Shown: positions 13,293 through 39,192 of the stretch, piece after piece
How positions within the stretch are numbered: the stretch's first letter is position 1
How the letters are laid out: the number at the start of each line of letters is the position of its first letter
Assembly: GCF_026151205.1 (NCBI RefSeq)
Contig: NC_087083.1
Coordinates: 7,604,460 to 7,668,459, forward strand
From: Bolinopsis microptera
Lineage: Eukaryota; Ctenophora; Tentaculata; Lobata; Bolinopsidae
Direction: 5' to 3'
Length of the DNA stretch: 64,000 nucleotides
Position numbers and translations under genes: made by a program
Notes under the pieces: generated by a model
The model's input: the letters and a program-made list of their open reading frames with translations, nothing else
Database searches by the model: none
Told to the model about the DNA's origin: nothing

Positions 13293-13380
13293 CTGTGTGA
13301 CAATGACTCAAATCACTAAAATAGGTCTTGAAAATGGCAGAGAAAGTCCATGGTACGAAACTAGGACACCAGTCGAACAT
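13293..13380 (-). CDS. Putative alternative first exon (E1)
   Basis: On the minus strand an ATG at 13380 opens 29 codons beginning MFDWCPSFVPWTF. The frame runs without a stop to CACACAG|GTAAGT, a strong 5' splice site with the G at 13293. The exon is 88 nt, so one base of the next codon is left (phase 1), like nine other candidates up to 39.2 kb. The peptide is rich in Trp, Phe and Cys and matches no family I recognise. It begins only 33 bp outside the MITE at 13005-13260. A plus-strand frame at 13276-13560 overlaps it but has no splice or domain support. Function unknown; expression must be tested. Confidence 0.5.
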
Positions 13381-13560
13381 ATTGGGATGCTGCTCACACT
13401 AATAGATACTGGGAAATGTATAAACTTTCTCGTAGAGAAATGGTGCTGGGCTTTTGCTCAGCTTCAACAGAATTTTCACACGGAAATTTACCGACACAAT
13501 AGCTGGGTTGGAAGGATTGAAATGTCACACAAAATGTATCATCACAATACGAATAACTGA

Positions 13561-14024
13561 AGTTGCAGACTATTGATTAGTTCCAATGTGAGAAAAAGCA
13601 CACCACATACATCAACTTATAGCTTTATAAGTTTATAGAGATCGAATATTTCGGTTTTCTTTGCATTAATAAGAGACAATATAGACAATTATCCCGTTTG
13701 AAAGTTTGAAGAAGAAGCATTTATAGAATTCAAGACGTCTGGGCGGTTTAAGATAATACGTAGTTTCTCAACCTATAGATCACTTTCTTAGTTCAGATAC
13801 TTCAGTGATGAGGTAAGGTATGTGGAACTAGGGGAAGTGTCGCATTAAGCTACAGATACCTTCAAGGTATGTGGTCCTAAGTGCAGGAATTAAGAACTAA
13901 GGACCTGGTATGTGATCTCAGAAAAGCTCTTTTGTATAATGATAAGAGCGATACGTGCGACAGTATTACTAATATGTTGATTGTTCTAGGTAAACTGAGA
14001 GTCTGGTTAACAAAGGACAAGCAT
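13561..14024. other. No recognised feature
   Basis: AT-rich sequence without a supported ORF, leading into the 25-bp minisatellite. Confidence 0.4.
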
Positions 14025-14499
14025 AGGTCATGTTCATTGTTCATTATTTAGGTCATGTTCATTGTTCATTATTTAGGTCATGTTCATTGTTCATTATTTA
14101 GATCATGTCCATTGTTCATTATTTAGGTCATGTTCATTGTTCATTATTTAGGTCATGTTCATTGTTCATTATTTAGGTCATGTTCATTGTTCATTATTTA
14201 GGTCATGTTCATTGTTCATTATTTAGGTCATGTTCATTGTTCATTATTTAGGTCATGTTCATTGTTCATTATTTAGGTCATGTTCATTGTTCATTATTTA
14301 GGTCATGTTCATTGTTCATTATTTAGGTCATGTTCATTGTTCATTATTTAGGTCATGTTCATTGTTCATTATTTAGGTCATGTTCATTGTACATTATTTA
14401 GGTCATGTGCATTGTTCATTATTTAGGTCATGTTCATTGTTCATTATTTAGGTCATGTTCATTGTTCATTATTTAGGTCATGTTCATTGTTCATTATTC
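14025..14499. repeat. 25-bp minisatellite, 19 copies
   Basis: The unit AGGTCATGTTCATTGTTCATTATTT (written here as AGGTCATGTTCATTG plus TTCATTATTT) repeats 19 times in exactly 475 bp. Only a few point differences occur, for example at 14101, 14391 and 14409. The high homogeneity suggests recent expansion. Confidence 0.95.
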
Positions 14500-15183
14500 A
14501 GGGTAGTAGTGGTTGAGAGGTCTGACATTTTGCAGACTGCAGTGCTTATAGACAATGACATGATTGACCAAATCGACTGGTAACGAAGTTTGCAATTAAG
14601 GCAGATTGGGCGGTTTTCGGTTTCCCAGAACCCCTGTTATTAGAAAAAATTTCGTGTTCTAACAACTAAACAAGTAAATTAATCCATTTAAAGGTTCTTG
14701 TTTGAAGATTCTCTAATGTATAACTGTGTGATTGAGTAGGGCGCCAGACAAGATAAAAATGAAAATCTCTGCGACGATAAAATGGTCGAGAACAATTTGT
14801 TACTTTCTTTTACCGTTATTGGCAGGACTTTGAGTAAATTCTGTCGCATAAAATAATCCAAATTAGCTAACGCGTTATTACGAATTTTATAATTTCCCGG
14901 TATATACACAATATAAAATGATCTGGGGTTAAATGCCTTGACAGTAAAGCAATCTACCAACTTACTAAATAGAAGTCTTTTACCCTAATATATTCTTCAC
15001 TAATCCGAACGAATTAAAGTAAAAATTCATAGGCGGAACTCAACAGTCATAGTGTAAATAGATAAATAATCATACAAACCAGTAATCTAATTTGTGAAAG
15101 CGATAAACATCAAGTATATGAAGAAGTAAATTTGCCGATAAATAATTGATCTGGAGAAAACAGGGATCAAAGGGTAAATGGAA
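14500..15183. other. AT-rich flank of the foldback element
   Basis: No supported gene. The 90-codon minus-strand frame at 14688-14960 begins with TTG and has no recognised domain. The last bases (CAAAGGGTAAATGGAAAATA) belong to the pre-insertion sequence of the foldback element, a related copy of which lies uninterrupted at about 20681-20730. Confidence 0.4.
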
Positions 15184-15191
15184 AATAAAAC

Positions 15192-16968
15192 GGCAAGTTT
15201 CCATAAACGATATTTTATGATCGTCGCCGATAATCGCTTATTGAGCGCTTTTTCGGCGCTTTTTTTAAAAAAAAAACCGTTTACAATCGCTTTTTTTACG
15301 ATTATAAACGGTTCAAAAAAAATCGCTTATAATCGACTATAATTGGTGTCATAATTCAAAAAAGCGCTTTTTTGAATTTAAAAGCGCTTATAAGCGCTTT
15401 TAAGCGCTTACTAGCGTCGCTGAGCGATTTGAAAGCGGTTTTCCAGTAGGATTGGCGCCAAAAACGGGTGGATAAGCGGTTGGCCGGATAAGCGATTCGT
15501 AGGCGCTTTTTTGGACCATTTATAAGCGATTATAAGCGCTTATAATTGGGGTGCAATTTAGCTGTTTGTAAAGCGCAAATAAAGCGCTTATAAGCGCTTT
15601 TAAAATTGAGTCAGGAAAAAGCTATATTACATCTTATAACCGCTTATAATCGATTATAAGCGTTTTTTTAGAAATCGCTTATTACGGCTAATTCATCGCT
15701 ATTTCACCGCTTTTACCGCTTTTCCTATCATCCATGGCAAGGTGGGCAGGAATTAAAAAGCGCTTATAAGCGCTTTTTCGATGCTGCCCCTAGCCTGGTC
15801 GGAACGGGGTAGTGCCCAAAATTTAAAAGCGCTTATAAGCGATTTCTCAATTCCCCTTAACCTGGTCGGAACTTGCATGTGCTTTTCTGAGCAACCTGGG
15901 GTGCACCGGCAGAGTCAGGATTTAAAAGCGCTTATAGGCGCTTATGATCGCTTTTCTACCACTTTTCCTATCACCCATGGCATGGGTTGGCAAGGATTAT
16001 AAAGCGCTTATAAGCGTTTTTCAATGCTGTACCTTAGCTGGTCGGAACGGGGGAGTGCCCGGAATTTAAAAGCGCTTATAAGCGCTTTTTCAATGCCGCC
16101 CCTAACCTGGTCGGAACGGGGTGGTGCCCGGAATTTAAAAGCGCTTATAAGCGATTTCTCAATTCCCCTTAACCTGGTCGGAACTGGAGAGTGCCCACTT
16201 GCATGTGCTTTTCTGAGCAACCTGGGGTGCACCGGCAGAGTCAGGATTTAAAAGCGCTTATAGGCGCTTATGATCGCTTTTCTACCGCTTTTTCTATCAC
16301 CCATGGCCTGGTTGGCAAGAATTATAAAGCGCTTATAAGCGTTTTTTCAATGCTGCCCCTAACCTGTTCGGAACAGGGGAGTGCCCGGAATTAAAAAGCG
16401 CTCATTAGCATTTTTTAATGCTGCGCTTATAAGCGAGTTCTCAATTCCCCTTAACCTGGTCAGAACTGGAAATCAGTGTGCCCGCTTATAGTTATAAGTG
16501 CTGGTCGGAACGGGGGAGTGCCCGGAATTAAAAAGCGCTCATAAGCGCTTTTTAAATGCTGCCCCTAACCTGGTCGGAACTGGAAATCAGAGTGCCCGCT
16601 TATAAGTGCTTTTCTGAGCAACCTGGGGTACACGGCAGAGTCAGGATTTAAAAGCGCTTATGATCGCTTTTCTACCGCTTTTCCTATCACCCATGGCCTG
16701 GTTGGCAAGAATTAGAAAGCGCTTATAAGCGCTTTTTCAATGCTGCCACTAACCTGGTCGGAACGGGGGAGTGCCCGGAATTAAAAAGCGCTCATTAGCG
16801 CTTTTTTAATGCTGCGCTTATAAGCGATTTCTCAATTCCCCTTAACCTGGTCAGAACTGGAAATCAGTGTGCCCGCTTATAGTAATAAGTGCTTTTTTGT
16901 GCAACCTGGGGTCACCGGCAGAATCAGGATTTAAAAGCGCTTATAGGCGCTTATGATCGCTTTTCTAC
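15192..16968 (+). repeat. Left arm of the foldback element
   Basis: The outer 700 bp are unique-looking. From about 15760 inward the arm contains repeats with CTGGTCGGAACGGGG, AGTGCCCGGAATT and CACCGGCAGAGTCAGGATTT blocks, separated by AAAGCGCTTATAAGCGC palindromes. Equivalent blocks recur at 15910, 16236, 16636 and 16919, spaced 326, 400 and 283 bp. Confidence 0.85.
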
Positions 16969-18132
16969 CGCTTCTACTAAATCGCTCGCCCAAATTTTAA
17001 GGAAATTCTTGTGAAAAGGCCCTTTGGGGCATGAAAGTGATCTAAATCGATGGAGGGTTGGCGGCTAAATCAAAGCTCAACGGCTCTGGATTAGGGGTGG
17101 ACGATAAAATAAACTTGCTCAGATTTCAAAATTTTTTGTAACACTGTTTTCTAGAGACTGTGAGAATTTTCACAATACCAAATTTGTCATACCTTTTTGG
17201 AAAGATCAGTGAGTTTCGCCTCACTAGCTGGGTGCCATTTGCTCTATCCAGAGCCCTTGCGCTTGCAGTAGCGCGCGCCCACTCACTTCTTGACGTACTT
17301 GTGAAACAAGCGCGCCCGAAGTGGCGCGAAAGCACACGGTTAGGTGAAGGGTGCCATATTTGATGGTGCGCGGCTTTTGGAGCAAAAGTAGATGTAAAAG
17401 TCGCGTAATTTGACCAAATTCGTTGATTTTTGTCGTATTATTTCGGACACTTTGCTCGTAAGTCTATGAGTACAGAGTGAGCTCACCAATTTTTGTTGCA
17501 ATCGGAGGTCGGGAAGGATACTCAATATCTATTTATTTGAAGAAAATTGTGCTGGCCGAAATTAGCGCTAAAAAACTATCCTACTATACAGTCGGCACGC
17601 GCGGCTCACTGTCGATGGCGCACTACCTATCTGGATAGAGCAACGGCAGCACGAAGGCACATGGTTAAGTTAAGTGCAAAATAATCGAACATGCAGAAAT
17701 TCTTAGCTTTATTGCATTGTATATCATGTGTATGCTTATTTTTGTATAAAAACCGCGACCGGCTTTTGCTAATTCGCTCGCCCAAAAATTTCACGTGACC
17801 TTGGTTTTTATGGTTTTGCAGCCGTACAAAACAGTTTTACATAAACCCTAATATAATCCCAACCATATACATAACCCCGAAGCTATCCATAACCCGCGTA
17901 CCTTAACCCAAACCCTAACATGAGCCCTAAATAATCGAAATCATGTTTTACTAGCCTGTCACGTGACTAAAACGGTTTTTGCCCACTCTCCAGGGAAATA
18001 TTTTTACCCTACGTCATGGCGGGTGATTCGGGATCAGCGTCCAAAAAAATACACCGATTTAGATCAATGTCATACCCAAAGGCCTTTTCACAAAATTTTT
18101 TTTTAATTTGGGCGAGCGATTTCGTAGGAGCG
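16969..18132. mobile_element. Inverted MITE ends in the foldback centre
   Basis: The left end CTACTAAATCGCTCGCCCAA (16975-16994) and the right end TTGGGCGAGCGATTTCGTAG (18109-18128) are imperfect inverted repeats. The similarity continues inward about 80-90 bp on each side. The right part (17761-18132) is an opposite-orientation relative of the MITE at 13005-13260, including degenerate CCCTAA-type repeats at 17850-17930, but carries about 115 bp that the other copy lacks. No target duplication is visible. I read this as one or two related MITE insertions inside the spacer of the foldback element. Confidence 0.6.
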
Positions 18133-18776
18133 ATTCAATTTAAACGCGCAATCTGGCGCGGTTTATTTGTTGCAGTTTTACTATCTAATAACCAAATTTT
18201 ACAAGTTATCTCAGCACGCCTGCACGCGCACGGCTTTACTAGCGTATATATACATTACTTTTTTCCTATTGGTACTCAGCGTGCACTTGTTTTTATGTCC
18301 ACGATTGATTATGAACAAGTACGTGAATGCTGGTCACGCACACACTAACTTTCAATGAGCACCGCACTTTTTTCAGACGTCGTGATTCGCTCAGCCCGAC
18401 TAGAGATTCCTTGGAATGACATAAACAGGCCTGTCATACTCGTTGACAGACTGAGCGTGGCCCAGCGCAATAATTTAATTTCATATACTAACTATATTTT
18501 TCTTTTGCAAGTTCTGAATGTGAAGTGTGTATGACTGATGACGCAGCGCGCATCGACCGCCACCGGCACCAGGACAACCACCACCATTAACAACATATAA
18601 ATAAACGCTTGCAAGCGCTATACAATTTCTGACAATTATTGTCGGAGAACTTTGCCGCGCCGTGCACTTAGCCTTCTTGCTTGGCTTCTAGATCGCCAGT
18701 CAAACAACTATGTTTAAATCCATGTTGATGAATGATAGATAAATCGGTAAAAACCAGCAATAAAAAGTGATTGTAA

Positions 18777-20305
18777 TCGCTTATAACTTATAACCGCTTT
18801 TCAAATCCTTAGGGGCAGCATTAAAAAAGCGCTTTTAAATCCTGACTCTGCCGGTGCACCCCAGTTTGCTCAGAAAAGCACATACGAGTGGGCACTCTCC
18901 AATTCCGACCAGGTTGAAGGGAATTGAGAAATCGCTTATAACTATAAGCGCTTTTAAATTCCGGGCACTCCCCCGTTCCGACCAGGTTAGGGGCAGCATT
19001 GAAAAAGTGCTTATAAGCGCCTTTTAATTCCGGGCACTCCCCCGTTGCGACCAGGTTAGTGGCAGCATTGAAAAAGCGCTTATAAGCGCTTTCTAATTCC
19101 TGCCAACCAGGCCATGGCCGATAGGAAAAGCGGTAGATAAGCCATCATATTCATAAGCGCCTATAAGCGCTTTTAAATCCTGACTCTGCCGGTGCACCCC
19201 AGTTTGCTCAGAAAAGCACATACGAGTGGGCACTCTCCAGTTCCGACCAGGTTGAAGGGAATTGAGAAATCGCTTATAACTATAAGCGCTTTTAAATTCC
19301 GGGCACTCCCCCGTTCCGACCAGGTTAGGGGCAGCATTGAAAAAGTGCTTATAAGCGCCTTTTAATTCCGGGCACTCCCCCGTTGCGACCAGGTTAGTGG
19401 CAGCATTTAAAAAGCGCTTATGAGCGCTTTTTTATTCCGGGCACTCCCCCGTTCCGACCAGGTAAGGGGCAGCATTGAAAAACGCTTATAAGCGCTTTAT
19501 AATTCTTGCCAACCCATGCCATGGGTGATAGGAAAAGTGGTAGAAAAGCGATCATAAGCGCCTATAAGCGCTTTTAAATCCTGACTCTGCCGGTGCACCC
19601 CAGGTTACTCAGAAAAGCACATGAAAGTTCCAACCAGGTTAAGGGGAATTGAGAAATCGCTTATAAGCGCTTTTAAATTTTGGGCACTACCCCGTTCCGA
19701 CCAGGCTAGGGGCAGCATCGAAAAAGCGCTTATAAGCGCTTTTTAATTCCTGCCCACCTTGCCATGGATGATAGGAAAAGCGGTAAAAGCGGTGAAATAG
19801 CGATGAATTAGCCGTAATAAGCGATTTCTAAAAAAACGCTTATAATCGATTATAAGCGGTTATAAGATGTAATATAGCTTTTTCCTGACTCAATTTTAAA
19901 AGCGCTTATAAGCGCTTTATTTGCGCTTTACAAACAGCTAAATTGCACCCCAATTATAAGCGCTTATAATCGCTTATAAATGGTTCAAAAAAGCGCCTAC
20001 GAATCGCTTATCCGGCCAACCGCTTATCCACCCGTTTTTGGCGCCAATCCTACTGGAAAACCACTTTCAAATCGCTCAGCGACGCTAGTAAGCGCTTAAA
20101 AGCGCTTATAAGCGCTTTTAAATTCAAAAAATCGCTTTTTTGAATTATGACACCAATTATAGTCGATTATAAGCGATTTTTTTTGAACCGTTTATAATCG
20201 TAAAAAAAGCGATTGTAAACGGTTTTTTTTAAAAAAAGCGCCGAAAAAGCGCTCAATAAGCGATTATCGGCGACGATCATAAAATATCGTTTATGGAAAC
20301 TTGCC
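18777..20305 (-). repeat. Right arm of the foldback element
   Basis: Reverse complement of the left arm, with a different number and order of internal repeat units. CCTGACTCTG blocks recur at 18841, 19179 and 19580, spaced 338 and 401 bp. The outermost 700 bp differ from the left arm by only a few bases, pointing to a young insertion or ongoing homogenisation of the arms. Confidence 0.85.
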
Positions 20306-20313
20306 AATAAAAC

Positions 20314-21092
20314 GGGCATACTCTCATGATTAAAATGGTAATTGCAACATGCAAAAGATCGAGGCAATGCACCGGAATACATTTGACTAAGGTGCCCACC
20401 GATCGGAGAATCAAATTAATATATAATCTATGTTGGAGAGACGAATGCTATCCTTTCTGAGACTTTGTTTTTTTTTTAAAGAATTATTTATAACCATTTA
20501 TACTCTTTATTTATAACTATTTTTAATTTTACCTTCTGTCGAAACTTTTATTTTTCTGATATAAACCTTCCTTGCACGGACGTCAATGCTGTTTCACCTA
20601 AGGCCACAAAATCAAACCATAGATCAATGTTTAAAGAGTATCTTGCGTAACCAGATACTTTCCAAGCAAAGAAAACAACAATCAAAGAGTAAATGGAAAA
20701 GGAAACTGACATTCTCGCATGAATAAATTATAAAATGGTCATTAGAGAGTTTTCTGCAACATGTAAAACGTTTAACGGAGAAAAAGTTCAAAAATATCGA
20801 GGCACCGCCATGATGAACTGATGTTTGATTTTTTTAATCTTGTCGAAGCAATAAAGCCGGATTTGGATGGCTCAGGAGACCAACGATTGGATAATCAAAT
20901 TTTGCACTGACGAATGTTATTTGTTGGTGATGGGAAATTTGTTGAAAAATCATTTATACGTTTACTTTAACTATTTTACCTTTTGTCGAAACCTTCATTT
21001 TCCCGATAATCTTTCCTTGTACGGACGTTAATGTTGCTTCATCAAAGGCCACAAAAGTAAACCATAGAATATAGATCAATGTTTAAAGAGAG
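20314..21092. repeat. Diverged direct duplication flanking the foldback insertion
   Basis: The segment at about 20318-20646 and that at about 20708-21092 are related. They share TTACCTT[C/T]TGTCGAAAC, TTCCTTG[C/T]ACGGACGT, AGGCCACAAAA and AGATCAATGTTTAAAGAG in the same order. The second copy, with its left flank at 20681-20708, shows the sequence that the foldback element interrupts in the first. Confidence 0.75.
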
Positions 21093-22107
21093 TCTTCCAT
21101 AATAGCACCAAATTTAGACGAAGTCAATGGCCAACCGTTAAATAAAAGTTACTGTGATATAACGGTATGGAAGCATAATGAAATTTAAATGAATCCCGTT
21201 TGTAAAATCAAAAGTAACTCAAGCGATATGCAGTGCTGGCCGCAATTGTTTCCTTTCATGGCAAAATATCTAAGTTCCTCAACATTTCTTAAGCTTAATC
21301 CTTTGGAATTAAGGTCAGGCTTTAGTACTTTAGTACATCAAATAAATTACTTTGATGTCGACCTTTACTATAGTCATATTGATTAATGTCGAGAAGCCTC
21401 ATCATCCACAAAGCTATGAATAGGAAGTGCAGCCCAATTTATATTCGGAAACAAGTTCGTTATTTAATCGCTGGTTAGTATAGTTTTATAGTACTAGTTG
21501 CGAATATAAGTTAGTTACATAGTTTTAAACTAATTACACTACAAATTTATAAACTTTATTAGATACTGATACTTTCAAAGCTATAAAGATGTAGTTTACT
21601 GACAATTTGAGAGTGGCACCACCAGTTTAACCACTATTTAATATTGAATAAGCTAAGGGAACTGATAGTACTGCTCTAGTTATACTACTGTTTAAACAGA
21701 TAAACGAGTTCGGCTTCTTGCTGATCAACGGTATTAAACATTTTAAGCGGGATTGCTATAATTTGGTTAAATGTGCCACCCTTTTGGTAGCGACAGTTGA
21801 AATCGTTTTGTAACAGTTCATTACTTATTTCCTGTGTCATTAAACCATTGATGAACTTACTGGTTTTCGAAGACCATATTACTATATTAATGTATTAAAG
21901 TTGTTCGGAATCAAAATTGTTGATAGCACTGGTTAGTTGGTCACAGCTCTTTATACTTTTATAGACCACTTTCTGTTAAACTTAAAGGCGGTTCACTTTA
22001 AACGTTATTATATCTATGGAATATCATTTACCTCGTAAAATTAAATAAGTTTAACTAATCATTAATAATTGTTCTATAGATTATGGAACGTAAAATATCT
22101 CACTCAC
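21093..22107. other. AT-rich stretch, no recognised feature
   Basis: No ORF with domain or splice support; the 65-codon frame at 21189-21386 looks random. Confidence 0.4.
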
Positions 22108-22147
22108 CAGTCCGCAGATACGCGATGTACTTCTTTGGAGTAATCAT
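22108..22147 (-). CDS. Putative alternative first exon (E2)
   Basis: An ATG at 22147 on the minus strand encodes MITPKKYIAYLRT and runs into GACTG|GTGAGTGAG, a near-consensus 5' splice site with the last exon base at 22108. The 40-nt exon ends in phase 1. It lies about 300 bp downstream, in the transcribed direction, of candidate E3. Too short for domain recognition; the case rests on the donor and the shared phase. Confidence 0.45.
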
Positions 22148-22454
22148 TACGCGTGGGTTAAGACAGACACAGAAACTCAAGAGTTCTCGTGCTTACATCG
22201 CAAGCTGACTTGACCACAAGTGACGATTATTCGAATAAAAAATAATAATTTTAAAAAATTACGGTTTTCAAAAGTAGGTAGGTTTTCAGTTTGTATTAAA
22301 AGTACGATTTCAAGCATTTTAACATAATTTTTCAGTGAAAACTCTACTCTACTTTATCATTTCTTGCCTCGATAACAATCATTCACGATATATCTAAAAC
22401 CAAGCAAGCTACAAACATTTCCACCCTCAAAGCTCGCCAACATGCTCAACTCAC

Positions 22455-22515
22455 GTTTAACGTATTTAAACGAACTTAACAAATATATAAATTGTACAGG
22501 AGATTCTGAGCGCAT
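22455..22515 (-). CDS. Putative alternative first exon (E3)
   Basis: An ATG at 22515 on the minus strand encodes MRSESPVQFIYLLSSFKYVK and ends at AAAC|GTGAGT. The 61-nt exon ends in phase 1 at 22455. The ATG lies at the edge of a locally GC-richer patch (about 22505-22580), which might be a promoter region. No family resemblance recognised. Confidence 0.4.
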
Positions 22516-23007
22516 ACAGCGCAGAGATTATTGTTGTGCGTACTTTGCTCGCGTCAGGCGGGCACGCTGTTTAAGCTAACGTTAATAAGTTCACCGTGCA
22601 GTTGTTGACTAGTTCACTAGCTGACCGTGTTTCTGCTATATTAATATAGTACTAGACCACACATGTTTAGCTTGATATTAAAATCCTCTGACGATAGTGA
22701 AAACACGTGTAATATTATGTTTTATTGATTATCGTGAGTGTTTTAAATGTGTGAGTATTTTTTCTGGAATATGTTGTTGAAGTCAGTGTCGGGTTATTTC
22801 ATGGTATTTCAAATCGGCACTTTCAGTATATGACCAGGGAATCTGGCCGTATAATTTCATTACTGAGGCTTCCTCACAATCTGTGCGCATACCCTTTAAG
22901 CAGCCAAATATTACTTACTGACTGATATTATATTATTTACTTTAGTCAAGTTAATTAGTCAGGTCGTTGAGAGAGACTGCTGATCATGAACAGCTGGCAC
23001 TTATGAA

Positions 23008-23072
23008 TTTATAATAAATACTATAATAAATACTATAATAAATACTATAATAAATACTATAATAAATACTAT
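23008..23072. repeat. 12-bp tandem repeat
   Basis: TATAATAAATAC is repeated about five times. Confidence 0.85.
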
Positions 23073-24292: not shown

Positions 24293-24698
24293 CTTCAACA
24301 CTGATGATCGTCTTTCCATTAACTCGTTCCTCTGATCCCATCCCTTTACTCTCCGTCACCACAACAGGTTCACAATATATCACACCACACGACGACGTAA
24401 TAACAGGAAGATTTGATAACTTTGATGACGTCACACGGGTGATTGATGACGTCTGCATGCGCGTTATTGAAGACGTCCGATTAAGTGACGTCCGAGAGGA
24501 AGTTGATGACGTCACACGTGTCGTAGTATGGAGGGGTACAAGATCAGGTTCTGCGAACGACACAAGAACCTTCTTATTTACAACATGAGGGGAGGATGCC
24601 CGACGTGGGGTTCGGAGGGAGGATCTGCTTGTGGCGATCTGTTGGCTGAATTTACTGGTACGGTATGTGGTGTCCAAAATCACTGAATTTGAATCCAT
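24293..24698 (-). CDS. Putative first exon, Ser/Thr-rich N-terminus (E5)
   Basis: The longest of the series: an ATG at 24698 on the minus strand opens 135 codons and ends at GTTGAAG|GTAAAT, last exon base 24293, phase 1 (406 nt). The protein starts MDSNSVILDTTYRTSKFSQQ. It has an Arg/Ser-rich region (residues about 24-36, SRSSLRTPRRASS) and a central run of repeats of the type R[V/M]TSS or RTSS (about residues 60-92). It then becomes acidic toward the splice site (SEERVNGKTIISVEG). It looks disordered and phosphorylatable, as in N-terminal extensions of cytoskeletal or signalling proteins, but no domain is recognisable. The internal repeats place two TGACGTCA palindromes in the coding DNA. 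If no splicing occurs the frame stops four codons further on. Confidence 0.6.
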
Positions 24699-28188: not shown

Positions 28189-28647
28189 AAAGTTAGGCCT
28201 TGATATTTAAGGAACATCAGTTATCAGATAAGGTGTAGCAAAACATATCAAATATTTGTCGGCTCATGTTCTGGAAAAATATAATTTGTACGATAAATAT
28301 TTTGATCCAGAAGCTTCCAAAAATTATGTTATTAGTGATTACCAGCTCCATCTGTTGACTGTTGGTGAAGTGCAACAAATTTAGAACATTCTTGACTCTG
28401 TTTGGGAGGTGGATCAGAGGGTCAGGCTTTTGAAATCCTTAATCTAAATTTTAGGAGAACTTAGAAAATTGTTACATTGACTCACCTTCAGCCAACTGAG
28501 AGAGAGCTTTAGAAACGAGGGCAATACAACACAAAATAAATTATGCAGCAAGTGCAAATAAAAATATCTAAATCAGTAGGTATAACAGGCTCTGAGAAGT
28601 GCCAAATTTCACTGCACTTATCAGAGGATTTGAGAATATTAACTCAC

Positions 28648-28717
28648 CTTCTGCGGGTGCTTTCTCCTTCTTCTTATTAGCGTACTTCTTGGAGTACGCG
28701 TAAGAGCCGCTTGCCAT
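28648..28717 (-). CDS. Putative first exon, lysine-rich (E6)
   Basis: An ATG at 28717 on the minus strand encodes 23 codons, MASGSYAYSKKYANKKKEKA followed by PAE. It ends at GCAGAAG|GTGAGTT, an excellent 5' splice site, last exon base 28648, 70 nt, phase 1. The start context GACATGGC has a purine at -3 and G at +4, a good metazoan initiation context. The Lys-rich stretch could be a targeting or membrane/nucleic-acid-binding tail, but no family is recognised. A second strong donor of the same form (GCTGAAG|GTGAGTC) lies downstream at about 28485 after a pyrimidine-rich AG. A 21-nt phase-1 cassette exon there (acceptor TCTAAAG) is conceivable but unproven. Confidence 0.6.
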
Positions 28718-30351
28718 GTCAACGGGTGATTGTCTTTTTCAGCTCCTTACTTTTAATCCTGACTATAAGTTCGCCACTTCTATCTATTTTAAAACTGATG
28801 ATTGTAGAGGTAGCACAAGCAACGGAATAAACTAAAAACACGAATGACCAGAACTGGATCACCTAACTCTCAACCAAAATACTGTAAGAAGTGCTATAAA
28901 GCTATAGGAATAACTACAGAGTATGAATCGCAAGGTTTTCCTGCATCATAAATGATGAAGGGAGACTATATGATGCAACAACTGTCCACTTATAATATGC
29001 AAATGATCGTTATAATATGCGAATGATCGCTCACATGCTACTATAAAGAGCCGACATCGGTTTGGGATTGTTCACATATTATGTAAGCTAGCTTAAAGGG
29101 TTGGAGTTTGAAATTTGTGTAATTTCTACACAATGGTAAAGTGGCTTACGGCGAGGGAGGGGCCGCCGTCTAAAATGATCCAAATCTGGCTTAAAAGATA
29201 ATATTTGAATATTCCATTGATATTCCACTGCAAAGAGGCTTGTGAACTGGTCGATTATGGGAGGTCTCGCCGCAAATGAGTTGGATAAATTAGGTACTTA
29301 TATATATTATGTAAGATTTGAAAATATTAAGTTAAGTTTGGTTAAAATGGGAGTTGTGTTTAGCAAAACGAAACCTAAGCGTGTACGTGACCAAATATAA
29401 GGACGCTATAAGCTGTTCAGTATATATATATATATTGACATCCTTCGGAGAGACACGGGGCTTGACGACAGCAAGGAGATAAACAAACTCATGCTGGATA
29501 GACAGATTTGGAAAAAACTATTTCTGTTCGGACGTTGAAGCCGCCCTAAGTCGAGTCGAGTCGAGTATAGTGACCAGCTATATATGTGGATATTATTTGC
29601 ACTGTATACTAGTATACCAGTATTGCAAGATTTGAGTAGTAGTATTGTCAATGGTGTTTGGTTTCAAATTAAGGAACGTCGTATTACGTGTCATACAGTA
29701 TCAATAGCTGTGGTTAGGCGGGTAAATCACGCGGTATCACAAGTAAACACAAGCAAATATTTTGAAAGTTCACTAAGACTAAACGCTGAAGGACCAGTAT
29801 CAAATGCGTCAAAGCAATAAGTACAGAACACGATGTGATTGAAAACGTGTGTCAATGTGTCACAATCTAATATCAATAACATGTCAATTGTGAGTTGTGA
29901 AGCATGAACAATCCACCGAGTGTGCTACAAACATCATGTGTTTATTGTGCATATTGTGTCATCTGAGCAGGGAAATAAAGGCAACATACTTACTACTATT
30001 CACGTAGTGTATCAATGTTCATGTGTTTATTCAGATGTAAGCGCGGCAGCAATGTACGTGCAAAAATGAGATGATAATCAACTCAACATTCATCAAGTGT
30101 TCCAGTTTTTGATTAATCAGTGTAATGAGACCATCTTAAGCAGAAGTATAGATCTGATGACTGTTATCTGAAACATTGGGCGCGCTTGCCAGCACCGTGA
30201 TCCAATGCTGCTATAACTCTATAAGTAGAGACTATAACGTGTAAATATTGCATATTCTTGCTGCATAGAGTGTGCGCAATTGGTACTAATTACTTACTCA
30301 GGACTTTAGGAAGTGTTCAAGGAGTGGGTTAGAGGCATTTTCCGGATATGA
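28718..30351. other. AT-rich stretch, no confident exon
   Basis: Frames at 29406-29651 (minus, TTG start) and 29584-29820 (plus) show no domain. Short simple repeats occur: (TA)n at about 29421-29436 and TCGAG repeats at about 29551-29566. Confidence 0.4.
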
Positions 30352-30408
30352 GTATTGAGTTAAATAATATAGGTATTGAGTTAAATAATATAGGTATTGA
30401 GTTAAATG
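30352..30408. repeat. 21-bp tandem repeat, about 3 copies
   Basis: TATTGAGTTAAATAATATAGG is repeated, with the last copy partial. Confidence 0.85.
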
Positions 30409-30525
30409 ATGTTCTGCAAGGTTCCAGTACTCCTTGCGTTAAACTGTAGAGTTATAATAATAGATGGAAACATTTAAGTTCTCCAAAATAAAAGGGAATT
30501 GAAGATGATAAAGTAAAGAACTTAC

Positions 30526-30607
30526 TGAATCTGCCTTGGTATTTCCTTTGGGGGACGTCCCTCATTGGGACACGGTTCTTTTCAAGATGGTAAAAATCAG
30601 ATGTCAT
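30526..30607 (-). CDS. Putative alternative first exon (E7)
   Basis: An ATG at 30607 on the minus strand encodes 27 codons beginning MTSDFYHLEKNRVPMRDVPQ. It ends at AGATTCA|GTAAGTTC, a strong donor, last exon base 30526, 82 nt, phase 1. The frame is also open upstream to about 30772 with earlier Met codons, so the start is uncertain. I chose this ATG because the upstream part is hydrophobic and AT-driven while this part is charged and protein-like. Function not recognised. Confidence 0.5.
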
Positions 30608-30959
30608 TTTGAAAAAGTATTGAAATGTAAAAGAATTTCGGAGAAAAGAAAATCGGTAAATTGTAATAGTGTGATCCCAGTGAATTACTATAGACATAGT
30701 TGGAGAATGTAAGCTTATTTTACAATTAATGTTTTTTAGGGAAATTAATATGTTGCTCAAAAACATAAACATAGGATTTAAAAGAAACAGGTTTTACTTT
30801 TATTAAATGGTCAACTATTCCCATCATGAACTATAACAGTATTTCAAATAATACAAATATAAAACAAAATAAACAAGATATATCGTATTTATTTTGTTTA
30901 TTTTGTTTATTTATTTAATTTATATATAAATTTAAAATGTTTCAGTAACGTAAACCCAC

Positions 30960-31080
30960 CTTTCAGTTTCACTAACCGCCATTCTTCATCATCTACTACC
31001 CACTGGTCTTCAGTTGACATTTTATTGTATCCAGAGCAGTAGCATTGTCTCCTGTACGAACAACCCGTAGTTCGGTACAT
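30960..31080 (-). CDS. Putative alternative first exon (E8)
   Basis: An ATG at 31080 on the minus strand opens 40 codons (MYRTTGCSYRRQCYCSGYNK, then MSTEDQWVVDDEEWRLVKLK). It ends at CTGAAAG|GTGGGT, an acceptable donor, last exon base 30960, 121 nt, phase 1. The second Met (31020) begins a compact acidic/aromatic segment and may be the true start; it gives the same phase. No domain recognised. It lies only 350 bp upstream of E7. Confidence 0.45.
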
Positions 31081-31113
31081 AAACTTTGGGGTTATTTCCG
31101 CTTTTGGGAACAA

Positions 31114-32126
31114 GATTTGGCTTTGTGAAACGGTTTAAAAAGTGGAAAGGAGCCGATCCTTTCCGTTAGAGATACGACGGATCGAATTTAATTAAGGCAT
31201 GATTTTAAAAAGTAGATGAGTTGCCAATTAATCGTCGATTTCAAGTTCGGACAACTTCGCCTCTTTATTGGCGTGAAACTCAAAATTAGTAACCCGAATA
31301 TGATATGTGCTCATCGATAGAATAAGAAAACAACCAGTCGAAAATTGAAACTGACTCAGATTCAAACATATTATAAGAACCCTGTAACTTGGGCGGGCTA
31401 CATATTCTAGGAATTAACGAAGACTATTATATTAATGGTCGTCATTAATTTCTTTTCATAACAACTCTAACGCAAAGTTTACCATAGTGATTGTTCGTGG
31501 AGATTTAAAATCAATCTATTTCGACTAAGTGTTTTCTACCGATGAGTTTTACATCCGGGTATAACTACATAAAACACATTACCGATGATAATTAGCATGG
31601 TAAATTTATACCATACTAAGCAGTTTATTTGTTCTACCACGGCCATGAAAAGCTGGCCTCTAAATTCCTAACTTTCAAAGCATTACTATTACAATTTAAG
31701 GCCTTTAGCGACAAGCTTTTCACGGCCAACTTTTCTTGGCCGTCAAAACGATTTCAACTTACAACTTACAAGAAACATTGGACTTTGAATCAATAGCCGC
31801 TGGTAAATTACGTCAAGTAAACGATATTTTCTCATTATGAGGTTTGAAAAGTCTTTATGCGACTAAAATACGTCTTTATGTGGGTTTGTTGATGGAGATT
31901 TCCGATAGGTTCTAAGAGTCAGACTTTTACAGTGATTAACTAGATATTCTGGCCAACTGGCTCTAAATTTTCATGTCTACTAAATACTCGATGACCCAAA
32001 CCCTTAACCTGATAGTGTCTCAGAAGCTCCGGGAATGCTCGAATATCATTAAACGTTGAAGAATAGAATACTGCTTATACCTTAAATAATGGTTGCCAAT
32101 GCCGACGGAACTCAATTGCATATATT
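31114..32126. other. AT-rich stretch, no recognised feature
   Basis: No supported ORF or repeat. Confidence 0.4.
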
Positions 32127-32408
32127 GGAGATAAGAGGAGATAAGAGGAGATAAGAGGAGATAAGAGGAGATAAGAGGATATACGCGGAGATAAGCGGAG
32201 ATAAGACTAAAAGAGGAGATAAGATGAGATCAGAGGAGATAAGAGGAGATAAGAGGAGATAAGAGGAGATAAGAGGAGATAAGAGGAGATAAGAGGAGAT
32301 AAGAGGAGATAAGAGGAGATAAGAGGAGATACGAGGAGATAAGAGGAGATAAGAGGAGATAAGAGGAGATAAGAGGAGATAAGAGGAGATAAGAGGAGAT
32401 AAGAGGAG
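32127..32408. repeat. 10-bp minisatellite, about 28 copies
   Basis: The unit GGAGATAAGA is mostly perfect, with variant units near 32181-32235. The ISSYLLLSPL-like frames are repeat artefacts, since ten is not a multiple of three. Confidence 0.95.
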
Positions 32409-32964
32409 CAAGCTACAAAATATGATTCACTCATATTATACTGGGAGTGATTATATCCGATAACCACTGCTCTTTTTACGCGACACAGCACAAGAAATCG
32501 CTAACACGATCTGAACAACGTTACATAGGAAGTGGGAGAAACTAAACCGTGCAACCATTTTCAACCCGGCTTGTTGGAAAAACTATTAATAGTATGTAAG
32601 CATTATGACGTAATTCTAATGGTCATACATTTAACTATTCATTTAACTATTCATCAATTTAACTATTCATCAATTTAACTTTTCATCATTAACAATTTTG
32701 TCCCGTATTTTGTACTATTTGTCTCAAGTACGCTGTACTCGATTACATTTACTGATTTAGTATTTTCGTTTCTGAAATTGAGCATTGTAGCTGCTCGTGC
32801 CTGATGATCAATAATTTAAAAACTTCCCCCTCTGTATGTTCAAAATAGTTTTTCCGGACTGCACCGGCCATGATCTACACTCCACTAATGACCAGATTTG
32901 TGAGTTTTATACAACATCTCAATATAATAATCTAATGAAAGTCTCTCAGTAAAACTCCACTAAC
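32409..32964. other. AT-rich stretch, no recognised feature
   Basis: Contains a short repeat of TTTAACTATTCATCAA at about 32630-32690; no supported gene. Confidence 0.4.
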
Positions 32965-33115
32965 CTTGTTGAACGAGATCTGACTCTTCAAAATGCTCTT
33001 GCTCCTCCTCAGTTGAATTGGCAGTGTGGTGAGGCGTTGGCGAGACAGCACGGCTATCCCTTGTTGCTTTACTGGATTTCAGATACAGTGCCATTGGCAC
33101 AGTCCTTCGAGGCAT
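32965..33115 (-). CDS. Putative first exon, 50 codons (E9)
   Basis: An ATG at 33115 on the minus strand opens 50 codons starting MPRRTVPMALYLKSSKATRD. A Ser/Pro/Thr region and a strongly acidic stretch (STEEEQEHFEESD) follow. It ends LVQQ at CAACAAG|GTTAGT, last exon base 32965, 151 nt, phase 1. An in-frame TAG lies nine codons upstream of the ATG, supporting this start. Composition is clearly protein-like against an AT-rich background. No domain recognised; the basic-then-acidic layout suggests a disordered N-terminal extension. Confidence 0.6.
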
Positions 33116-33415
33116 TTCTGCTGCAGCACCTCCCCCTTTCTAAATCCTTCTAGAAACTTTTAGAAAAACTGCAAACACTTTGTCTTCCTCTTCAGATGAA
33201 ACTCCCGGATGTGATTTATGTTCGCTGAGTATCTGATCCTGATAGCCGCCGGTCACCGTGAATATTATCAACAAAAAGTTACAACTCTCCGCTGAGCCGA
33301 TCACAACAAATAATAATAACGCTAACTCCAAACTTGACACAGTATCAGTATAAAAGTATAAATATACTCTTCGTCTCTCGAGCCCGGCAATACTCCTCCA
33401 ACAACTCTCCTGCAA

Positions 33416-34111
33416 TTACATATATCTCCTCCTCCGTCCTTAATCTCTTAAACACGCCAGCTAGCACAAGGAAAAACTATTGATAACTCAACCGGATCGA
33501 ATGCAGGTATTCACTCCGCAAACTTTCCTTATAATTATGAAGCTGGTAGTTCTGAACGACCGCATTTCCTAACCACTTTTACTGAATCCACACGCACACA
33601 CGCACACACGCACACACATTTGTACTAATCTCCCGTTGAAATGAGCCGGAAACTATTGCTACCAGTGTAATTTTTGACTCTTAGTAATTGTTATTGGATC
33701 AGGGTTATCGGAGTTTGCAGCAGTGTTTCCAATACATACACTGTCTGCGGGTAATCGATCTGACCCGCTGTCGCTCTGCAGGCGTTCCTAATATGCTTCG
33801 CAAGCGTTCCTAATATACTCCGCAAACGTTCCTAATATACTCCGCAAACGTTTCAAGCTATCAAGTTCACTTCAATTAAAACTAAGCGGTATGATTTGGG
33901 TGGGAGGGTTGGTGAAATTGGTATTATTACACCACATTATCCCTTGTGAGAGGTGATTAGAAGATAAGGTGGTAGTCGTGGCTTTTAGTATTCTCAACTT
34001 AAACTGTACTGGTAATTGTGGATAATGATCAGGTAATTGTGGATAATGATCTGCAGACATCAGATCATGAGATCATCAGGTGGATAATGCAAACGATTTA
34101 CTCTAGGTTAT
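33416..34111. other. Short repeats, one unsupported ORF
   Basis: A 23-bp repeat (GCGTTCCTAATATACTCCGCAAA type, three copies) lies at 33781-33851 and CA-rich DNA at 33593-33619. A 62-codon ATG frame on the minus strand (33872-34060) contains DHYPQLP twice and no good donor; I do not call it a gene. Confidence 0.4.
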
Positions 34112-34605
34112 CATGAAATTACCAAGCTTTAAGTTTAATGTTACCAAACTTTAATGTTACCAAACTTTAATGTTACCAAACTTTAATGACACCAAACTTT
34201 AATGTTACCAAGATTTATTGTTACCAAGATTTAATGTTGCCAAGATTTTATAATGTTACCAAGATTTGATGTTACCTAGATTTAATGTTACCAAGATTGC
34301 ATGGTTACCAGGTTATCATGTTACCAGGTCACCAGGTTACCAGGTTACCAGGTCACCAGGTCACCAGGTTACCAGGTTATCATGTTACCAGGTTACCAGG
34401 TTACCAGGTCACCAGGTCACCAGGTTACCAGGTTACCAGGTCACCAGGTCACCAGGTCACCAGGTTACCAGGTTACCAGGTCACCAGGTGACCAGGTTAC
34501 CAGGTTATCATGTTATCAGGTTACCAGGTTACCAGTTTACCAGGTTACTGCAGTTTATCAGATTAACAGGTTACAAGGTTGACATGTTACTAGGTTAACA
34601 TGTTG
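34112..34605. repeat. 16-bp repeat passing into (CAGGTTAC)n
   Basis: 34112-34312 holds about ten degenerate copies of TTTAATGTTACCAAAC. From 34313 the sequence becomes an 8-bp array of CAGGTTAC with CAGGTCAC variants up to about 34605. The shared GTTACCA core suggests that one array arose from the other. Confidence 0.9.
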
Positions 34606-35520
34606 TCTTGTGAACGCTGGACAAAATTGTTGTCTCTTATGTATTTTTTGTAACTCGAAGGGGACTGTTCTGTCTTAACTGTGCGTGAAACTGTAGAGGT
34701 TACAATGTTACGAGCTGCATGGGCGAGAATTACAATGTTGTGATGTCAATGGTTTTAACATGAGACTGAATATCTAAATTTTTAAAACGCAGTCTAGAGT
34801 AGAACTTAGTCAAAGGAGTATATTTCAAGGTTTACGACAGTGTGCTTATTACTTAGCCAATTTCAATTTTTGTTCGAAGTTGGAAAGAGACAAAAAACTA
34901 TCGAGACAATAAATCAGGAATCCATAAACTCCCGGGAGAATTACACTGTAAATATTTTGGTTTAGTAACTTAACTATAATTGTCATGTTATTGACAAATG
35001 TGAATTTGTAAATTCGATGGGCAGTCCTGGTAATGAATATCTGTCTCGTTAAATAAGAGTTAAAAGCATAATATTCTCAATACTTCAATAAAGCAAATAT
35101 TCTTATGGCGATCCAATGATTATATAAATTTTCGTTAAACCAATCGGTCATCACCTTTCAAATTTAAAGGCTCGCAGTACTAAATCAATGTTGAATTAAC
35201 TTACTATGTTATGACAACTGTGAAGGCAAAATGAAAGCAATTTTCAAATACAATTTGCCTCCTTTTTTAAATTCCAGCTTAGAATGAAAGAAATCATTTA
35301 TTTCTACTTTTAGACACCCTTAGTCAAACTGGATCTTTAACACGGATAAGCATTTTTACTGGTTGCTACAATTGAAGAAACTGGTTCAACAAACCAGCTA
35401 AAATCATATCGGCCCAATGAAAAAATTTTGCTACCGAATAACTGTTACTGACCCATTTGTGAAAAATGTAAGGTGAAAGACCTCAAATCACCTCAGAAAG
35501 TGACTTAATGAGCAGATTGG
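34606..35520. other. AT-rich stretch between arrays
   Basis: No recognised gene or repeat. Confidence 0.4.
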
Positions 35521-36121
35521 TAGGTTACTAGGTTACCAGGTAACTATGTTATTAGGTTACCAGGTTACCAGGTTACCAGGTTACCAGGTTACCAGGTTAC
35601 CAGGTTACCAGGTTACCAGGTTACCAGGTTACCAGGTTACCAGGTTACCAGGTTACCAGGTTACCAGGTTACCAGGTTACCAGGTTACCAGGTTACCAGG
35701 TTACCAGGTTACCAGGTTACCAGGTTACCAGGTTACCAGGTTACCAGGTTACCAGGTTACCAGGTTACCAGGTTACCAGGTTACCAGGTTACCAGGTTAC
35801 CAGGTTACCAGGTTACCAGGTTACCAGGTTACCAGGTTACTATGGTATTAGGTTACCAGGTTACCAGGTTACCAGGTTACCAGGTTACCAGGTTACCAGG
35901 TTACCAGGTTACCAGGTTACCAGGTTACCAGGTTACCAGGTTACCAGGTTACCAGGTTACCAGGTTACCAGGTTACCAGGTTACCAGGTTACCAGGTTAC
36001 CAGGTTACCAGGTTACCAGGTTACCAGGTTACCAGGTTACCAGGTTACCAGGTTACCAGGTTATCAGGTTACCAGGTTACCAGGTTGCCAGGTTACCAGG
36101 TTATCAGGTTACCAGGTTACC
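35521..36121. repeat. (CAGGTTAC)n array, about 75 units
   Basis: A nearly perfect 8-bp satellite with one interruption at about 35840. Because eight is not a multiple of three, all frames read the same GYQVTRLP peptide; this is not a gene. On the minus strand each unit reads CCTGGTAA and so contains a weak donor-like CTG|GTAACC. The array begins about 50 bp past the donor of exon E10. Confidence 0.95.
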
Positions 36122-36171
36122 CTGATAAACCCTGAGTAACCCTGAGATTTAAGTGAAAGACTTCCACTTAC

Positions 36172-36280
36172 TGATATCCAGGACCTCTGACAGAGACTTG
36201 GAGAGTCTTTCTATCTTCCGTCTTTTCTCTTGGATCACCACGCTGTGTTGGGCGGCGAACGAACCAACTTGCATCGCCAT
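36172..36280 (-). CDS. Putative first exon, coiled-coil-like (E10)
   Basis: An ATG at 36280 on the minus strand opens 36 codons, MAMQVGSFAAQHSVVIQEKR continuing into RKIERLSKSLSEVLDI. It ends at GATATCA|GTAAGT, a consensus donor, last exon base 36172, 109 nt, phase 1. The second half is charged with leucines/isoleucines spaced like an amphipathic helix, which could form a short coiled coil; this is inference. A second in-frame Met at codon 3 could also start. The 600-bp (CAGGTTAC)n array lies immediately downstream in the presumed intron. Confidence 0.6.
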
Positions 36281-37795
36281 TCTTTTCAGTGATCATGTCA
36301 GTCACAAAACTTTTAACTCCTCGTTTATAATCAATCTAACTCACTTTTATCACAAAAGATTCAAATTATTTGCAGTGATCCTTTGTAAAGCTTTGAATGG
36401 TTTAAATTATTAAGTTTACAGTGTAAAATGAAAAAGGTTTTAAAAGAAAAACAAGCTGATTTTGTTTGAACTAACATCAAAGGTAGGATTAAGATACTGA
36501 AGAAAATTTCAAAGAGATTATCGTACGGTGACTGCTTGCAACAATTTGAAGGAAATTTACTGTACGTGAATATTTTCCCCAAATAATCATGACACGCGTG
36601 TCATTTCGATTACTCGGTTGTGAGTCGTGACAAGTTGACAAGTCATGTTTTAAAATGTCCATGAAAAACTAACGTCAAAATAACGCAGTGCGTATAACTA
36701 TAATTAAGAATACGCCTAGACTTAATTGGTTATTAAGAATAAGAAACTAAAATCTGTGGATTCATTGTCCAGTGGATTTGAGATAAATGTTTTCTAGGGT
36801 TACTTTATGGTTGTTACCACCTAGCTGCTGGAGCCACGGTGAACGCTTTAGGGTTGGTAATTTAATTCCGGAACACTCCTATCTTTAATCATCCCCTATT
36901 TAAGTCTTTAAAATTAAAGCTATGCTGGATTACTACGAGGACATGGGTAAACGGAAAAAAAATTTTTAATAACTTTCTGTAGAATGGTTTATCAAATCTC
37001 CCTTTTATGAATTTTTCGAATTGATGGTCTGGAAGCAAAGCAATGGTAAAATTGTCAAGGCTAGAATTAAAAGCGAAGCACACGTGCGAGTGGTCCAGCT
37101 TATAATTGTAAATACTTTGCAGAAGATAATTTTGTTTGACGTCAAGATTGTCGTAAAACATTCATATATTATGCCACAGTGAAACTATATTCAGTTTTGT
37201 TAGGAGCATATTTTCGCGCGAGAATTTTTCAAAAAGTTTTTCAAAGTGTATAACTATAACGTGTTATTGCTGCCTGTGAGACTGAAAATAACTAAATTTC
37301 ATTATCAGATAAATTCGCAAGACCCTCTTTAGAGAAACTACAATAAAGATATGTGCTGTGGCGACGGAACAAATCGCTGTACTAAACGGATTTGACAAAA
37401 ATAGTTCTATCAAGCTGTTCCAATTTTAATTCCTGCGCTTCAAATTTCAACCGACCAACAAAGCAAATCAGTCCACAAATTAAGCAGAAAACGAGAACGT
37501 TTATACGGACCTAATTAGTAACCATCTGCAATGAAGGCAAAATTGTTGCTCACTACCTCCTCTACCGAAAGAAAACCAGCATTCTTGTGATAATACTTTG
37601 ACTTTTATGCCACATTACAGCTCAAATTGGTGTGACAAATGGATAAAGTCGCAGATTTCAAAGGGGTTCTGAGAGGTAAATGACGGTTGCAATTAACCAA
37701 GGCAATTTCATCCACTTTAGATGGATCATGTCAGAGCGAGGACTGAAGAGTATCTGATTATGTGGTAAAATGTGGTTTAGTCGGTGATTCCAGAG
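36281..37795. other. AT-rich stretch with one unsupported ORF
   Basis: A minus-strand ATG frame at 36889-37161 (90 codons, starting MFYDNLDVKQNYLLQSIYN) has a fairly protein-like composition but no recognised domain. A weak phase-1 donor (CAAA|GTATTT) occurs after 15 codons. It may be chance; listed so it can be checked against transcripts. Confidence 0.25.
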
Positions 37796-38072
37796 CAGGT
37801 TACCAGATTACAAGATTACCAGATTACCATATTACCAGATTACCAGATTACTAGATTACCAGATTACCAGGTTACCAGGTTACCAGGTTATCAGGTTATC
37901 AGGTTACCAGGCTACCATGTTACCAGGTTACCAGGTTACCAGATTACCAGGTTACAAGGTTACCAGGTTACCAGATTACCAGATTACCAGATTACCAGGT
38001 TACCAGTTTATCAGGTTACCAGGTTACCGGGTTACCGGGTAACTAGGGTATTAGGATTTAGGTTACCAGTTT
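37796..38072. repeat. Degenerate (CAGGTTAC / CAGATTAC)n array
   Basis: The third array of the same 8-bp family, with mixed CAGGTTAC and CAGATTAC units. It is the most diverged of the three. Confidence 0.9.
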
Positions 38073-39029
38073 AGTTTTACCAGTTGCAGTATTCGGTGGT
38101 TTCTTTGCAGGTGTTGAACTATTTCAACTATTTTTATTCAACTATTTTAGGTTAATTTCTGTGGATCTGACGATGATGATGGATGATAAGACAGCAAACT
38201 TCGAAATTTTCGATTCTATGACGAGTGACGACTGACGACAGCTAATTAGTGATTGATGACATAATAGTTCAACCCTGACTGCAAATCTTCAGTCGTGATT
38301 TCAGCTTCTTCTCAACATGATCAGGGATTGTTGTCAACGGGAAACAATGATATATTTTGTTAAAAATTTCTGACCAGTCTATTGGGATTAATTCTATTAT
38401 TCCTTTTTCAGCATAAGTGAAATATCCTGTACAGAACTATAATCCAAATAATAACTGCATCGTTAAAAGCAACCCAGATGAACCTACTTTCGAACTTGAT
38501 TGGTTAATTCGGTTCGTGGGTTAACAGTCGGTGGTATAAAAAGGGGGGGGGGGGGTAAAATCCACCATGATTCACACAGCTTACACCAGACACCTCTTTG
38601 TAATAAAAGTGGAACGTGAAGGCAGTTCATGATAATATGTTAGAGTTAAAATGTGCCATGAAGTGTGTGACAACAAGGTGTTAATTACAAATTGGAAGAA
38701 GTTTTAGAAAATCTGAACGTATGTGGTGAAAGTCTGCAGCTCTGCGACAAGTCTAATAGTTTTGCCTACGTTTGTCTTGAATTATAAATTCAAGAGCTTG
38801 TTTATTCAGAAAAAATTTATAGAATTTGCATTTGAGAAACGGTAAAATGTAATATTCGATCCCTTAATGTACTTTTGAGAGTTATGTCACAGTTATACTA
38901 AAAATCACTAAAAATAAATGATTAAATCAATGGGAAGGAAAAAATAGTTATGAAAAACTGATACAAGGTCAACCAATCTCTCATGACAAAATATAAACTG
39001 AAAATGTTTATTCCTGAAATGAAACTGAC
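38073..39029. other. AT-rich stretch with a G13 run
   Basis: Contains a homopolymer of 13 G at 38543-38555. No supported gene. Confidence 0.4.
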
Positions 39030-39192
39030 CTGATATCTGTAGCGAATGGTCCAACTGCTGTCTAATATCCCCGACTCTATCTTGATCGCTTTCCCCGTGC
39101 GTTATCACTAGACATTTTGAATTACCACCGTGACTGCCGTGACGTTTGTTGAGTTTTGGAGTTTCTGATCGCCTTCTGAAGTGGGAGTTCAT
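39030..39192 (-). CDS. Putative first exon, 54 codons (E11)
   Basis: An ATG at 39192 on the minus strand opens 54 codons beginning MNSHFRRRSETPKLNKRHGS, with a polar middle and a helical end (DIRQQLDHSLQIS). It ends at ATATCAG|GTCAGT, last exon base 39030, 163 nt, phase 1. The basic Arg/Lys/His-rich start followed by a possible helix echoes E10 in layout but not in sequence. Without splicing the frame would continue to about 38908. No domain recognised. The 338-bp (CT)n block lies 75 bp upstream in the transcribed direction. Confidence 0.6.

Follow-up and report, generated by a model that had tools for sequence, protein, structure and literature searches.

Alternative first exons that share the remainder of a gene have been described in several systems. 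In those sections of two published accounts that deal with plectin (PLEC), about a dozen variable first exons join one common exon 2, providing the protein with short N-terminal heads that differ from one another (PMC8391331, PMC8468861). Likewise, the passages of two further reports that concern UGT1 and protocadherin-type clusters describe tandem variable first exons feeding one common set of exons, with a promoter of its own for each UGT1 first exon (PMC1885805, PMC3325998). The multiple-first-exon arrangement is already known, from plectin as well as from UGT1. Here, we analyze a candidate arrangement of this kind on the minus strand of a 64,000-nucleotide (nt) stretch of the genome of the ctenophore Bolinopsis microptera (NC_087083.1, forward-strand positions 7,604,460 to 7,668,459), henceforth referred to as the window, in whose coordinates all positions are given. 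A first-pass annotation, made from the sequence alone, had listed ten ATG frames between 13293 and 39192 that end at 5' splice sites (donors) and leave one base of the next codon (phase 1), and had interpreted them as alternative first exons of one large gene with many promoters. Our results indicate that the feature is in part real: a phase skew modestly withstands correction, and perhaps four to seven of the frames that carry it are credible as first exons.

Phase skew among minus-strand frames

All ten frames, designated below by the position of their last base, are present: a GT is found at each donor, preceded by an open ATG frame of 13 to 135 codons with one base left over. The ten peptides, described as unrelated in the first-pass annotation, gave no pairwise match by blastp at E ≤ 1. 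The donors had been called good; they reach 12.7, 12.3 and 10.3 bits at 13293, 28648 and 22108, and the exon side is weak at 30526 and 36172.

The statement that ten of ten candidates share phase 1 does not stand, as the list had been selected. An unbiased scan of all phases was carried out on the minus strand from 13.0 to 39.25 kb, with tandem repeats masked, considering frames of at least 13 codons at donors of at least 5 bits. It yielded 20 frames, distributed over phases 0, 1 and 2 as 2/15/3. Ten of the frames are absent from the original list, which had come with a warning of selection bias: five are in phase 1 (20598, 21351, 22197, 23289 and 23436) and five are not (14984, 15412, 31770, 38488 and an additional one at donor 36172). 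At donors of at least 7 bits, phase 1 accounts for eight of nine frames, and at 8 bits or more the counts are 0/6/0. With the 5-bit cut-off, the opposite (plus) strand from 13.0 to 39.25 kb shows 11/5/7, while the region from 39.7 to 64 kb shows 7/2/3 on the minus and 4/9/3 on the plus strand. Frames below 13 codons display no phase-1 skew at this cut-off (2/3/7 for 3 to 7 codons, 3/1/1 for 8 to 12 codons). The first-pass list was the source of the 13-codon minimum, for which the P values given here carry no correction.

As a null for the counts, 1000 local dinucleotide shuffles were generated and evaluated at cut-offs of 5.5, 7 and 8 bits. A phase as full as observed, whichever phase it was, occurred with P = 0.011, 0.013 and 0.004, respectively, and a single-phase dominance as strong as that observed was reached in none of the 1000 shuffles at any of the three cut-offs. 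Strand and span had been picked post hoc; therefore, both were allowed to float in a scan test over the masked window, in which phases were drawn randomly. This test returned P = 0.0025, 0.007, 0.0225, 0.047 and 0.0175 at 5, 5.5, 6, 7 and 8 bits. The argument that a shared phase is improbable thus retains some force, since the skew outlasts an unbiased scan, but is weakened to P values between 0.0025 and 0.047 once strand and span are free. We consider the evidence from the scan test suggestive and not overwhelming.

Ranking of frames across the window

In the masked window, 80 frames at donors of at least 5 bits, on both strands and in all phases, were ranked by a score combining donor strength, start context and amino-acid composition. 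A first ranking used a disordered-protein composition against a broad background and 200 shuffles. A second ranking used a local background of approximately 200 bases and shuffles in 200-base blocks (n = 100), with disordered- and average-protein models.

The first ranking is led by 28648, followed by 32965, the phase-2 frame at 36172, 30960 and 24293, the latter two entering from inner ATGs. Four frames exceed a score of 15, compared with 0.24 expected over the six strand-phase classes; three of these are minus-strand phase-1 frames and one is the phase-2 frame at 36172. In the second ranking, 28648 again leads both models; 32965 takes second place under the disordered-protein model but eighth under the average-protein one, and 30960, 24293, 22108, 36172 and 30526 are among the top 12 in both. 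Minus-strand phase 1, one of six strand-phase classes, contributes eight of the 12 best frames with either model. With the average-protein model, seven of these eight end at donors listed earlier and the eighth is 61153; the other minus-strand frame in that top 12 is 58728, which overlaps a dispersed repeat. High scores are in excess with the disordered-protein model: two frames versus 0.05 at a cut-off of 16 and 0.2 at 14, reached in none of 100 shuffles, with P between 0.02 and 0.03 at cut-offs of 8 to 12. For 30526, 30960 and 24293, an ATG later than the one originally proposed scores better. Moreover, G+C content lies about 10 or more points above the flanks in six of the ten listed frames versus 10 of 57 other unmasked frames (donors of at least 5.5 bits). 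What is directly observed comprises the frames, their donors, the skew in phase and, for some frames, a protein-like composition.

Candidate exons

The most likely members of an alternative-first-exon set are 28648, 32965, 30960, 24293 and 36172, perhaps together with 30526 and 22108 (Table 1).

Table 1. Minus-strand candidate exons and related frames in the window; a slash marks the exon end at the donor
Feature	Position	Strand	Extent	Donor	Sequence
Leading first-exon candidate	28648..28717	-	23 codons + 1 base	AAG/GTGAGT, 12.3 bits	MASGSYAYSKKYANKKKEKAPAE
First-exon candidate	32965..33115	-	50 codons + 1 base (43 from inner ATG 33094)	7.9 bits	MPRRTVPMALYLKSSKATRDSRAVSPTPHHTANSTEEEQEHFEESDLVQQ
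First-exon candidate	30960..31020	-	20 codons + 1 base from inner ATG (first-pass ATG, 31080)	9.7 bits	MSTEDQWVVDDEEWRLVKLK
Long candidate	24293..24698	-	135 codons + 1 base, or internal 258-nt exon 24550-24293	9.0 bits	
Ambiguous first-exon candidate	36172..36280	-	36 codons + 1 base	TCA/GTAAGT, 5.7 bits (weak)	MAMQVGSFAAQHSVVIQEKRRKIERLSKSLSEVLDI
Weaker candidate	30526..30607	-	27 codons + 1 base from inner ATG	TCA/GTAAGT, 5.7 bits	
Weaker candidate	22108..22147	-	13 codons + 1 base	10.3 bits	
Uncertain candidate	39030..39192	-	54 codons + 1 base	8.5 bits	
Hydrophobic frame	13293..13380	-	29 codons	12.7 bits (strong)	
Short frame	22455..22515	-	20 codons	AAC/GTGAGT, 7.5 bits	
Possible 21-nt microexon	28486..28506	-	phase 1-1; a short way downstream of the 28648 exon	AAG/GTGAGT	ALSQLAE

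The ATG of 28648 lies in the context GACATGG, and that of 36172 in the strong context AGAATGG. The G+C content of 32965 exceeds that of its flanks by 11 points, and its eighth place with the average-protein model is obtained from 33094. Frame 30960 is fourth in the first ranking and sixth in both models of the second. The composition of the 135-codon frame at 24293 is slightly negative, and the frame ranks well solely from the inner ATG at 24341 (16 codons); base counts by codon position were set aside for this frame, because an open frame alone biases such counts. Within it, at 24415-24520, several ACGTCATCAA-like repeats with TGACGTCA cores, which we take to be CRE-like, were read by eye. 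These repeats could be regulatory instead of coding.

Starting from 30607, 30526 is third in both models of the second ranking and 14th in the first, while the 82-codon frame from 30772 to the same donor looks non-coding, its composition being strongly negative. Frame 22108 is 12th under one model of the second ranking and seventh under the other, and its separate composition score is negative. An in-frame stop immediately precedes the ATG of 39030, which is 11th in the first ranking and outside the top 14 of the second. Frame 13293, with a strongly negative composition and an adjoining repeat copy at 13143-13260, is probably due to chance, as probably is 22455, which combines a negative composition with a G+C content lower than that of its flanks and lies outside the top 14 of the second ranking. 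The possible microexon, found by eye, has a weak acceptor (CTAAAG) and falls below the cut-offs of our internal-exon scan. Beyond the span of the original list, a minus-strand phase-1 ATG frame at 61153-61258 (donor, 11.5 bits) is in the top 12 of the second ranking with both models and might be part of the same array.

Search for a possible gene body

The Pfam scan covered three stretches of each strand: 1-4.5, 9-39 and 39.6-64 kb of the minus strand, and 1-4.5, 9-38.8 and 49.6-64 kb of the plus strand. On the minus strand of the stretches scanned, nothing reached the curated cut-off; DUF3915, Atrophin-1, PFF1_TM, ODV-E18, RPN7 and Gb3_synth matched below it. The only family above cut-off on either strand of these stretches was Uroplakin II, on tandem arrays. 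Because no minus-strand match reached the cut-off, the gene body would be located outside the window. A calponin-homology common exon 2, which would also be expected outside, was represented by neither a motif in the six frames of the window nor a Pfam match in the stretches scanned.

Among solved structures, no match was obtained for 32965, 39030 or 28648, whereas 36172 gave a single match (E = 6.8) and the 21-residue peptide of 30960 matched designed repeat proteins (E = 0.019 to 0.17). Two viral spike constructs matching the Ser/Thr-rich frame 24293 (E = 0.13 and 0.77) were judged composition artefacts.

Proposed arrangement and alternative explanations

In our judgment, chances are about even that four to seven of the frames serve a single minus-strand gene as alternative first coding exons, the body of that gene lying beyond the left edge of the window. 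Each first exon would have a separate promoter. A transcript begun at any one of these promoters would bypass the remaining first exons and be joined to a single shared exon, whose first two bases would complete a codon. Since all would be joined to the same downstream acceptor, every first exon would have to stop after one codon base. The gene would thus make proteins that differ in their heads, for the most part hydrophilic, and have the same body. That the frames are transcribed, that their promoters are separate, that they are spliced to a single acceptor and that such a gene exists are inferences. The earlier reading of the ten frames as one multi-promoter gene is partly supported by the phase skew and several plausible first exons, but two or three members look chance-like, a phase-2 frame competes at one donor and 24293 is possibly an internal exon. 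A more extensive array of 8 to 15 unrelated phase-1 N-terminal heads, spread over more than 25 kb in a non-vertebrate gene not known for such an array, appears unlikely; it would match the array of plectin in size, and would extend to about 48 kb if 61153 were included.

Several observations weigh against a set of alternative first exons. The number of frames is ordinary compared with shuffles (P = 0.51, 0.34 and 0.17 at 5.5, 7 and 8 bits; 17 frames at 5.5 bits versus about 17), and because of this the skew is partly a deficit of phases 0 and 2, which genuine exons would not produce. Smaller skews, in differing phases, are seen in the other three strand-spans, and the unlikely hydrophobic frames 20598, 22197, 23289 and 13293 are likewise in phase 1. 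The disordered-protein composition model was adopted after the peptides had been seen, and the excess of high scores is not significant with the average-protein model (P = 0.10 to 0.17 at cut-offs of 8 to 14). Donor 36172 also ends a phase-2 frame of 41 codons, starting at 36296, that overlaps the phase-1 frame and outscores it with disordered-protein composition; with average-protein composition, the phase-1 frame is 11th and the phase-2 frame outside the top 14. A scan for internal exons with entry phase 1 between 1 and 40 kb gave two candidates on the minus strand versus nine on the plus strand. The former are 24550-24293 and 12926-12762 (165 nt, phase 1-1, unremarkable peptide), the sole such minus-strand candidate left of 13.3 kb. 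Five second-exon motifs (plakin, dystrophin, ankyrin and PKA) had no convincing match in the six frames of the window, an absence to be expected if the common part lies further left. Finally, no homologue was found for the two of ten exons searched: at E ≤ 10, the 136-residue peptide of 24293 matched nothing among similar-length and long proteins, nor did that of 32965 among long proteins. This null is weak evidence either way, since N-terminal heads diverge fast and the animal coverage of the collection is uncertain.

The ordinary frame number, the weak frames in phase 1, the skews elsewhere and the non-significant average-protein test all favor an explanation mostly by chance, as do the five other-phase frames omitted from the original list and P values of merely 0.0025 to 0.047 with strand and span free. 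ATG frames would then simply lie beside donor-like sites in intronic or intergenic DNA, at most one or two of them (28648, 32965) being real, and the common phase would be a lucky run perfected by selection. This is a serious possibility, although we place it below even chances, as the phase dominance was unmatched in 1000 shuffles and a single strand-phase class holds eight of the 12 top-scoring frames. If it is correct, freedom in selecting donors and span has turned 15 of 20 into ten of ten.

The inclusion or skipping of a phase 1-1 exon leaves the reading frame unchanged, and the frames might instead be internal cassette exons of this type in a minus-strand gene, their ATGs encoding internal methionines. 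Frame 24293 may be such an exon because it contains a strong acceptor, 24550, which ranks at the 99th percentile among AG sites and would give an exon with phase 1 at both ends; the possible microexon at 28506-28486 points in the same direction. The only entry-phase-1 acceptor at or above the 95th percentile in the open frames of the other nine, however, is 36186, which would leave an exon of 15 nt, and in all ten frames in-frame stops occur 0 to 18 codons ahead of the ATGs originally proposed. As an account of the whole set, cassette exons are improbable. Still less probable, and in our view very much so, is that the frames belong to transposable or satellite DNA. Such DNA is plentiful in the window (a foldback element, a fragment resembling a long interspersed nuclear element (LINE) and many arrays), and repeats come as close as about 50 bases to 13293 and 36172, but blastn at E ≤ 1e-3 found no second copy of any of the ten exon bodies in the window.

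Repeats and other features of the window

The window has a G+C content of 39%, abundant simple and tandem arrays and the character of animal-like nuclear DNA; Rfam gave no match in it. The plus-strand open reading frame (ORF) at 59600-61072 (490 codons) is LINE-like and matches a reverse-transcriptase zinc-binding family (E = 1.4e-5) at 26.1 bits, slightly below the family cut-off of 27.5. The foldback element spans 15192-20305, with arms at 15262-16163 and 19336-20237 that are 97% complementary across 902 nt; its outer ends, 15192-15274 and 20223-20305, are completely complementary over 83 nt. The G+C fraction is 0.445 in 16001-20000 versus 0.347 and 0.339 in the adjoining blocks.

A degenerate trinucleotide-like array of 4.1 kb with units AGG and GGAGCAGGA occupies 4575-8671 and creates spurious long ORFs on both strands. 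The 8-base unit GGTTACCA and its rotations make up three arrays (34303-34597, 35522-36121 and 37796-38040), and the plus-strand Uroplakin II match was rejected as a translation of these GGTTACCA arrays. Near-identical direct-repeat pairs (262 nt, 100%; 268 nt, 96%) link 49781-50419 and 54182-54710, in swapped order and at spacings of 4.0 and 4.7 kb.

Comparison with known systems

The variable exons of UGT1 and the protocadherins are homologous copies of one another. This contrasts with the present locus, where the ten peptides lack mutual matches and the exon bodies lack a second copy in the window. Genes for dystrophin, spectraplakins, ankyrins and the PKA catalytic subunit have phase-1 alternative first exons ahead of a conserved second exon; the locus differs from them in that the five motifs are not convincingly matched in the window. 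As dystrophin, the ankyrins and PKA also have a phase-1 junction, phase 1 is not diagnostic of plakins.

Plectin, the first exons of which we take to be all in phase 1, differs as well, in that a common exon and an actin-binding domain were not found within the window. The likeness to plectin put forward originally holds for the architecture, but nothing ties the locus to a plakin. A genuine set of first exons would suggest a cheap genome-wide screen, in which ATG-to-donor frames are counted per phase and compared with the opposite strand. In that case, the row of promoters would place varied heads on one protein in a plectin-like manner, and their common phase would reveal these heads from genomic sequence.

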